From Xiphias gladius (lineage: Eukaryota > Chordata > Actinopteri > Istiophoriformes > Xiphiidae), in NCBI RefSeq assembly GCF_016859285.1, contig NC_053417.1:21096206-21160205 (forward strand): a DNA stretch of 64,000 nt. Direction: 5' to 3'. Under the pieces are notes generated by a model. The model saw only the letters and a list, made by a program, of their open reading frames with translations. It was not told where the DNA came from and made no database searches. Positions within the stretch are counted from its first letter, which is position 1, and every line of letters begins with the position of its first letter. Position numbers and translations under genes: made by a program. Below are positions 50,720 to 53,700 of the stretch, piece after piece.

Positions 50720-53700
50720 TTACATTGTCAACTCCTGCAAAGGGAACAAGAGAGGTTTGTTAGCGTACGTTTCAAGAATTATTTATCCAGTTTAGACAGT
50801 TTTTCTCTTCTCAGGACAGAAATGTTGGCTTCAGTAAACTCAGAAGAACGAAAGTCACTGTATTTATTCATCACTGAAGAGTTCTTCATACACATTTATC
50901 ACCAGAAATCTGAGTAAAACATTTAAAATGGCTTGTTGAGAATAATGCTCCAAACCATTTTACTAAAATTAGAAAACGTTTTTAAAGTCTTACCATAATA
51001 GCATTGACAATGTCGTTGTTGTTGTTTTTCAGGGCGCGTACAGCCTTCGCCCGCGACACGTTGGCTTGTGACATGACGAGTTCAATGTCCTTGACCTCAA
51101 CTCCGGTCTCATCAACCTATAAAAATAATAGGGGCAGAAATTTGTAACACCTCATATTATGAAACAAGAACTCAAATTAATTTGTGTCTATCCTGACTTG
51201 AATAAAACTATTTCTTACCTCTTCTTCTTCGCTCTCCTCCTGTACTGTTGGCGTCTGTGTGTTTTCCTGGATGTTTGATACAGCTTCTCCCTGTACCTTG
51301 AATTTTTCTGCGGCAGCCAGCTGGGCTTGCTGGGAAAGATCTTCAATCTGGGATGCAAGAGAGACAGTAAAATGAAACATCAATACATCATTTGGCAGTA
51401 AGATCTTGGCCGAGGACATTTTCTAACATTTTTACCGAATTTCTCAATTAGTCTATTCTACTGCCTTATGAAAGGCTGAGAATAGACCAGACAGTGGGAC
51501 CAGTGTAATCACTTGACACCTTAAGAAGGGATAAAGACTAATGTGGCTTGTATTATTACTGGCTACATACCTTAGCTTCACCAAAGACGATGTATGTGTC
51601 TGATGCAGGGCTCTTGTAGACGTCTGGTTTGGTGATGACAAACAAGATGTTCTTTGACTTGCGAATTGTGACCCTGGTGACCCCCGTTACCTGCCTGAGA
51701 CCAAGCTTTGACATTGCCTGCAAGAAATACAAATCATTTTACAAATGTGGCCATTTTTTACCATTACAATGAAATCAGAAAAGCCCATTTGACATTAAAA
51801 AAAAAAAAATCAAATATTTTAATTAAGTTAAGATCGTTACCTTCCGTGCCTTCTTCTCACTGCGGCTCTGTTTGGCTTTGCTGACAGGTTCCTCATCTAT
51901 CTCAGCAGCTGCTGCAAGCTAAAGGAGATTCATCCACATTTAATTTGAATATGTAAATGTAGAACTTATTGTGATTCATCACTGGTTTTAATAGTGTCTC
52001 TTCTCAGGACAGAAAGGCTAGCTTCAGTAGGCTCAGAAGAACGAAAGTCACTGTGCAAATCATCACAGAAGAGTTATAGACCATCAACATCTGCTCAAAA
52101 AGTTTGACATAACCAGTAAATGTTGAAATGGTCTTGTCTGGGCTAAAGTCAACAGTGAACACAATATTCAAGCACAGACTGAAAGCTCACCTGAGCTTGC
52201 TGTGTCTGTGTCTGTGTCGAGTCCTGTTCCTCCAGCTCAGGGACTGAGTCATCGCTGTCCGACTCAGTGCCGGATCCTGCAAAAACCACCAAGGGGAACC
52301 AAAATTTTGTCATAAAATGTCACCTTTTAAAAAAGTGTACCCCTAAAAAGTAGTTCTGCAAATAAGCTGCATCATTCCTGAGGAATAAAAATGCATACAT
52401 CAATTTATATTCAAGTTGTCTGAACTTATGCTTCCAGATTCATGATGATTTTTTAACCTCAAATCCAAACAACTGTGTACTCTGTGTGTTGAGAACACAA
52501 TTCCCCTTCAGTCTCTTACCATATTTACCAGACCAACACAAGACATTTTCACTAACTAAATAAAAACTGACATCAAACATTATATGATCACACAAATGAA
52601 TGTGTACAAAATTATTACAGAGTATACAACAAGAGCATTGACTTTCCAAAACCAGGAGACTCCATGTCAACAACTAGGTAGCATGTCACAGTTTAAAATT
52701 TAAAAAAGCTAATTTATACTTCACAGCCTTGGAGAATGACATAGCTAAGCATCTGAGTTGTTTCCAGACTGCAGTACAGCTGGAAAAACAGATGGCACAA
52801 AAGAGGAGAGAAAGAAGAAAATACCCTTGTCATTCTTGACCACAGGCTCCACCTTGGCTGGTGTTTTAGTAGGTGTGGGGGCAGGTTTGGGTGATGAGAC
52901 GGGCTCAGAGGGAGTTGTACTGATTACCTCAACCTCAGGTTTAACAGGGGCAGGTTTTGCAACTGCCTCAGCAAATGTGAGTTTACGGGGAGCTGGGGCA
53001 GGAATAGCAGGCTCGACTGGAATGGGTTTTAAGGGAGCAGATGAAGGTTCAGCTGCTGTTTTGGCAGGCTTTGCAACCTCAGCAGGTGCTGCCTTAACCT
53101 CAGCCAATTTGGCCTCTGGCTTAGCATCCTTCACAGGAGCTTGCTTGGTAACCTCAGCGGCAGCTAGTTTAGGTTCTCCAGCTGGCTTGACAACCTCAAC
53201 AGAGGCAGACCTGACCTCCACATCTGGTTTTGCAATCTTAGGAGTAGACGCTTTAGTTTCTTCAACTTGTTTATGAGCCTCAACGGGTGCAGGTTTTTTG
53301 GCTTCGACAGCTGGCTTGGTGGGGGCCTCGACAGGAGCAGGTTTTTTGACATCCACCACTGGCTTAGTGGCGGCCTCGACCGGAGCGGGTTTTTCGGCCT
53401 GGACAGCTGGCTTGACAACCTCAATAGAGGCAGACCTGACCTCCGCATCTTGTTTTGCAATCTTAGTAGGAGCAGCTTTACTTTCTTCAACTTGTTTATG
53501 AGCCTCAACAGGAGTAGATTTTTTGACCTCCACCGCTGGCTTGGCGGCGGCCTCCACCGGAGAAGGTTTTTCGGCCTCCACAGGAGCAGGTTTAGCGGCG
53601 GCCTCCACAGTTGGCTTGGTGGCCTCGACAGGAGCGGGTTTTTTGGCCTCCACAGCTGGCTTGGCGGCAGCCTTCATCGCAGGCTTAGCTGCGGCCTCCA

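Follow-up and report, generated by a model that had tools for sequence, protein, structure and literature searches.

Both copies of the box C/D snoRNA SNORD59 that were found in the genome of Xiphias gladius lie in introns of naca, and the fish counterparts of ATP5B, the ATP synthase beta gene that houses this snoRNA in human and chicken, were found on two other contigs with no SNORD59 beside them. Because both genomic copies are in naca and the chicken U59 snoRNA is in intron 2 of ATP5B, we regard the difference in SNORD59 host between this fish (one genome) and amniotes as real. The best explanation overall, to which we would assign somewhat better than an even chance, is that naca releases two working SNORD59 RNAs, that a single copy came into naca and was duplicated there, and that the ATP5B gene of the same block was lost or moved away, with atp5f1b elsewhere supplying ATP synthase. 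The case is a clean one of a conserved snoRNA that has different hosts, neighbours in human, across vertebrate lines, and such cases are needed to tell the jumping of snoRNAs from local recombination and from copying followed by loss.

SNORD59 in the introns of naca

The DNA that we analysed, referred to here as the window, is a 64-kb stretch (C18:21096206-21160205) of the 691-Mb Xiphias gladius assembly. When the whole window was scanned with cmscan against all 4227 families of Rfam 15, two matches to SNORD59 (RF00273, gathering cut-off 45 bits) and nothing else rose above the gathering score. Both are on the minus strand at the places where a first-pass annotation of the sequence had proposed two SNORD59-like snoRNAs, and their E-values exclude a chance match. 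The copies, their sequence elements and the host features are as follows:

50720..60820, minus strand: naca, stop codon back to the ATG (tblastn with a human NACA query; ORFs; NAC and UBA domains in Pfam)
50735..50993, minus strand: naca intron with copy 1, 259 nt, GTAAGA..TTTGCAG (flanking exons by tblastn and translation)
50806..50880, minus strand: SNORD59 copy 1, box C/D snoRNA in the last naca intron (RF00273, 82.5 bits, E 6.8e-17, model positions 1-73 of 73)
50868..50874, minus strand: copy 1 box C, GUGAUGA (sequence, aligned to the model)
50844..50856, minus strand: copy 1 guide, GACUUUCGUUCUU, directly 5' of box D' (sequence; identical to the Rfam consensus)
50840..50843, minus strand: copy 1 box D', CUGA (sequence)
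50811..50814, minus strand: copy 1 box D, CUGA (sequence)
51919..52190, minus strand: naca intron with copy 2, 272 nt, GTGAGC..CCTTTAG (flanking exons by tblastn and translation)
51999..52072, minus strand: SNORD59 copy 2, box C/D snoRNA in an upstream naca intron (RF00273, 75.5 bits, E 6.6e-15, model positions 1-73 of 73)
52060..52066, minus strand: copy 2 box C, GUGAUGA (sequence, aligned to the model)
52037..52049, minus strand: copy 2 guide, GACUUUCGUUCUU, directly 5' of box D' (sequence; identical to the Rfam consensus)
52033..52036, minus strand: copy 2 box D', CUGA (sequence)
52004..52007, minus strand: copy 2 box D, CUGA (sequence)

The terminal stem UCUUC/GAAGA is present in both copies, in the sequence as well as in the model alignment, and the closing stem, box C, the D' guide region and box D of each align to the RF00273 consensus, in agreement with the stem, the boxes C, D' and D and the shared 13-nt guide of the first-pass description. 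A search of the window sequence placed AAGAACGAAAGTC, the complement of the guide GACUUUCGUUCUU, at 50844-50856 and 52037-52049, and we take the pairing target of the guide to be this same string in a conserved sequence of 18S rRNA. In full length, guide, box layout and terminal stem the fish RNAs are like the other members of RF00273 (human SNORD59A/B, that is U59; yeast snR54; plant snoR59), and judged by their sequences the two are ordinary SNORD59 members. They differ from the family in being hosted by naca instead of ATP5B, in the closing stem pair, U-A in the two fish copies where the Rfam consensus has C-G (a two-sided change), and in a total of nine differences common to both copies, including both sides of the closing pair, a count that is a comparison with the Rfam consensus and not a tree. 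Changes private to one copy number three in copy 1 and six in copy 2, and one position differs differently in each. At model positions 19-22 and 60-63 both fish copies read ACAG and CUGU, which are mutually complementary and have no such match in the consensus; this might represent an added internal pairing or chance.

The host gene is recognisable from exons on the minus strand that are matched by human NACA in tblastn searches, with the ATG exon at 60820-60746, and from the NAC domain and C-terminal UBA domain that Pfam places in two of its exons. The proposed assignment of the snoRNAs to naca was borne out, since each of them is contained in a GT..AG intron and lies on the strand of its host, copy 1 in the intron that precedes the final exon (ELTM-stop). 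Box C/D snoRNA release is favoured at ~70-80 nt before the 3' splice site, and the distances from snoRNA end to 3' splice site are 71 nt for copy 1 and 80 nt for copy 2, as would be expected of intron-encoded members of this class.

Elsewhere in naca, within a long repeat-rich stretch at 52745-56366 (minus strand), two ORFs, 52745-54424 and 53907-56366, overlap in different frames, so that the frame is apparently broken there or one more intron is present; the stretch resembles that of the muscle skNAC isoform of NACA. Upstream of the ATG exon (60746-60820, minus strand) there is a pyrimidine-rich AG acceptor, which makes it probable that a non-coding first exon is located still further 5'.

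As read from this arrangement, the two RNAs would be produced by transcription of naca, which is broadly expressed, followed by splicing and debranching and by trimming with exonucleases down to the box C/D core. By analogy with the biology of their class, they would then direct the fibrillarin-mediated 2'-O-methylation of a conserved 18S adenosine (A1031 in human), and ordinary 18S methylation is most likely the function of SNORD59 in this fish. The U59 target appears as 18S Am1031 in the human column and as Am975 in the yeast and plant columns of PMC3511168. Chicken U59, named GGgCD22, is given in PMC2653536 as the homologue of mammalian U59A/B, yeast snR54 and plant U59, and in Table 1 of that paper it has one isoform, in ATP5B intron 2, assigned to 18S-A989 in the paper's own numbering; on these entries the chicken RNA also guides an 18S adenosine, but as a single isoform in ATP5B, as compared with the two copies in naca of the fish.

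Copy number and probable duplication within the host

The search of the entire 691 Mb with RF00273 gave two matches, both of them in naca (60 of 185073 first-look candidates were scored). A 19-nt core of SNORD59, allowed up to two mismatches, was found at 10 places, comprising two exact matches, both in naca, and eight with two mismatches; the backward control of this core was found at 21 places, as compared with the 10 of the true core. The count of two obtained with RF00273 is independently supported, since the core-pattern search also has its exact matches in naca, and no SNORD59 host other than naca was found in this genome. The same 19-nt core had no matches in a public collection of viral contigs, and its matches in public genome contigs, on two bacterial MAG contigs, were set aside, there being no Rfam match above cut-off on those contigs.

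The two host introns are alike only over the snoRNA and ~3 nt on each side of it (86% over 80 columns), and the next best match between them is 14 nt long, with an E-value of 0.028. We give almost no credence to the idea that the naca copies are relics without function: each has its full length and intact boxes and guide, the closing pair has changed on its two sides together, the spacing to the splice sites is suitable, the genome searches gave no further copy that might do the job, and the two have remained similar although the sequences around them diverged.

The differences from the consensus that are common to both copies fit a founder that came to reside in naca and was duplicated there, or homogenisation of the two copies. 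The first-pass annotation had spoken of a snoRNA pair with a changed host; there are indeed two copies, but they need not have moved as a pair. Taken together, the nine shared differences and the single chicken isoform suggest separate origins for the human and the fish pair, and independent duplication in each host would fit the sequences better. Families of box C/D snoRNAs with several members are described in PMC8178906 as residing mostly within one host gene, through recombination. An alternative history, in which ATP5B and NACA both carried SNORD59 at one time and alternate copies were lost in each lineage with no true host jump, could draw upon the making of extra copies that this implies and upon the ease with which a redundant copy is lost. 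We consider it improbable, in that neither the fish nor the chicken is a species with both hosts, the chicken entry being one isoform in ATP5B only (PMC2653536), and the two naca copies are, by their nine shared positions, close paralogues of each other.

ATP5B in the block and elsewhere in the genome

The human gene order is BAZ2A-ATP5B-PTGES3-NACA, and human SNORD59A and SNORD59B are both in introns of ATP5B. In the window, baz2a, ptges3 and naca are all on the same strand, the first two being placed as follows:

22137..37219, minus strand: baz2a, approximate span (Pfam bromodomain and WHIM1; span partly from the ORF list)
43599..45918, minus strand: ptges3, between baz2a and naca (tblastn exon matches with human PTGES3)

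The BAZ2-type bromodomain of the window scores 84.5 bits with BAZ2A as compared with 63.8 bits with BAZ2B. No recognisable ATP5B was found in the 64-kb window, in which tblastn gave a single chance match (E 4.0), or in flanks of 10 kb and 30 kb on its two sides; the query was an ATP5B sequence of which the first ~25 residues are wrong and the rest is 79-95% identical to the real fish genes. The absence of ATP5B from the interval between BAZ2A and PTGES3, as first described, is thus confirmed, but the more general statement that the host gene is missing applies to the locus and not to the genome, in which a search for atp5f1b gave 12 exon matches, six on contig C13 and six on C16, belonging to two copies:

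C13:12132353-12134098, plus strand: atp5f1b copy (genome search with human ATP5B)
C16:14289176-14290720, minus strand: atp5f1b copy (genome search with human ATP5B)

Both copies span residues ~51 to 528 of the human ATP5B query, with gaps of ~70-250 nt between exon matches. The reading frame of the C16 copy changes inside one exon, whereas the matching C13 exon reads through; this apparent frame break might reflect an assembly error or a decayed copy, and only the C13 copy is therefore supported as an open gene. With cmscan (E<=1), no SNORD59 was detected near atp5f1b in the 60 kb represented by 6 of the 11 fetched C13 and C16 loci, and, as one C13 intron crosses the join of two of those loci, 4 of 12 shorter loci, one of them spanning the join, were scanned as well and gave none. 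Short-word BLAST with both snoRNAs against all 110 kb around the atp5f1b genes returned matches of 11-13 nt only. The 10-nt string AGTGACTTTC of the fish SNORD59 is also found in the C13 atp5f1b intron (~12131904-12132117), probably by chance, since cmscan gives no SNORD59 match there.

The position of the former host also differs, with atp5f1b near abcb11 and a DHRS9-like gene on C13 and near lrp2 on C16. About 3.4 kb beyond atp5f1b on C13 there is an exon of a short-chain dehydrogenase that has DHRS9 as its top match among solved structures (82.5 bits, the next being 24.8), with ~48 of 102 aligned residues identical (~47%); RDH16-type relatives are absent among the matches listed, so that the gene might be of the DHRS9 or the RDH16 type. 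Further on, an ABC transporter scores 114.1 bits with ABCB11, the bile salt export pump, as compared with 104.5 bits with ABCB4. On C16, ~10-20 kb from atp5f1b, a gene of the LDL-receptor type has an exon that aligns colinearly over 98 residues with LRP2 967-1064 (140.9 bits); we read it as LRP2, with LRP1 possible since the solved LRP1 chains among the matches listed are short fragments. A VWA-bearing gene with collagen-like repeats (recognised by eye) is present on both C13 and C16, which suggests that the two contigs are teleost-duplication partners, and C16 also has a Kunitz domain. A coiled-coil ORF lies between atp5f1b and the LRP2-like gene on C16. The proposal of a host change within one neighbourhood is therefore correct in that the hosts differ, but is only half of the story, the fish atp5f1b genes being on two other contigs.

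Direction of the host difference and the paralogon question

In human, ABCB11, DHRS9 and LRP2 lie close together on 2q31; the ATP5B block, with BAZ2A, PTGES3, NACA, RDH16 and LRP1, is on 12q13. The 2q31 and 12q13 regions are parts of the HOX paralogon. In PMC4042849, LRP1B, LRP2 and LRP1 are given as one 2R family.

In the series of events that we propose, one SNORD59 copy would have passed into naca within the same block and on the same strand, to be duplicated there; the ATP5B of the BAZ2A-PTGES3-NACA block would have been lost or moved away, and atp5f1b in another, perhaps ohnologous, block would have supplied ATP synthase. A history that is derived in fish, in which the block lost its ATP5B, a second atp5b elsewhere (perhaps a 2R ohnologue) was retained and naca continued to hold SNORD59, is favoured over former residence in both hosts and over an ancestral residence in naca because of the coincidence that atp5b lies in what we take to be the ohnologous block; we would set its probability at about one half. 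A translocation of atp5b into that block would look the same as the survival of an ohnologue.

Hosting by naca might instead be the ancestral condition of bony vertebrates, or an older one, with SNORD59 having moved from NACA to the neighbouring ATP5B on the way towards amniotes. NACA and ATP5B being close neighbours in human, a short move would be equally easy in either direction. The naca paralogue on contig C22, which we read as nacad, has three naca-like exon matches and no SNORD59, and therefore gives no support for hosting that predates the split of NACA and NACAD, a weak argument since loss is easy. On balance we think the ancestral residence in naca unlikely. The C22 paralogue is presumably nacad, as named by eye; its interpretation as a 3R copy of naca is not favoured, since an ORF of 1851 aa adjoins it and the gene reads as nacad. 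Fractionation after 3R was also considered as the cause of the missing ATP5B and rejected, since the atp5f1b copies are not beside baz2a or ptges3; neither the second ptges3 (C18, 14.37 Mb) nor the nacad-like gene on C22 is near an atp5f1b copy. The second ptges3-like gene is at C18:14368077-14370194 (minus strand), ~6.8 Mb from the window.

A further and more tentative reading, which we would place clearly below an even chance, is that the ATP5B genes of teleosts and amniotes are not one-to-one orthologues and might be different survivors of the early vertebrate duplications. Amniotes would have kept the 12q13-type copy, which carries SNORD59 in its introns and is flanked by BAZ2A and PTGES3, and this fish would have retained the 2q31-type copy near lrp2, abcb11 and the DHRS9-like gene and doubled it later. 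Rather than following the protein of its host, SNORD59 would have remained in the old block, saved by transfer to an intron of naca, two genes off, and its position would mark a hidden gene replacement that is invisible to protein similarity. The relocated atp5f1b adds a testable question of hidden paralogy: were the fish and tetrapod ATP5B genes hidden paralogues, a much-used "orthologue" would not be one, and SNORD59 would be the tracer that shows it.

In human the two hosts of the present case are two genes apart and on one strand, and in this fish the chromosomal surroundings of the old host gene are themselves different; both features set the case apart from the known changes of snoRNA host, with which it shares a conserved snoRNA whose hosts differ by lineage. 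Such changes are treated as intragenomic mobility in PMC3511168 and among the type-4 clusters of PMC2653536. Our literature search found no paper that links SNORD59 with NACA, and a prior report or a genome-browser annotation is possible; the main text of PMC6954239 is without naca, snord59 and atp5.

Some other features of the window can be listed for completeness. A match to SCARNA7 at 61166-61385 (minus strand), with 26.9 bits against a cut-off of 65, lies over a GT repeat and was judged to be due to chance. An aquaporin gene is present at 13419-15064 (minus strand), of which the tested exon is weakly closest to AQP2/MIP, so that the label mip is insecure, and ORFs that by eye are like pieces of a Tc1/mariner transposase are found at 10204-11078 (minus strand).
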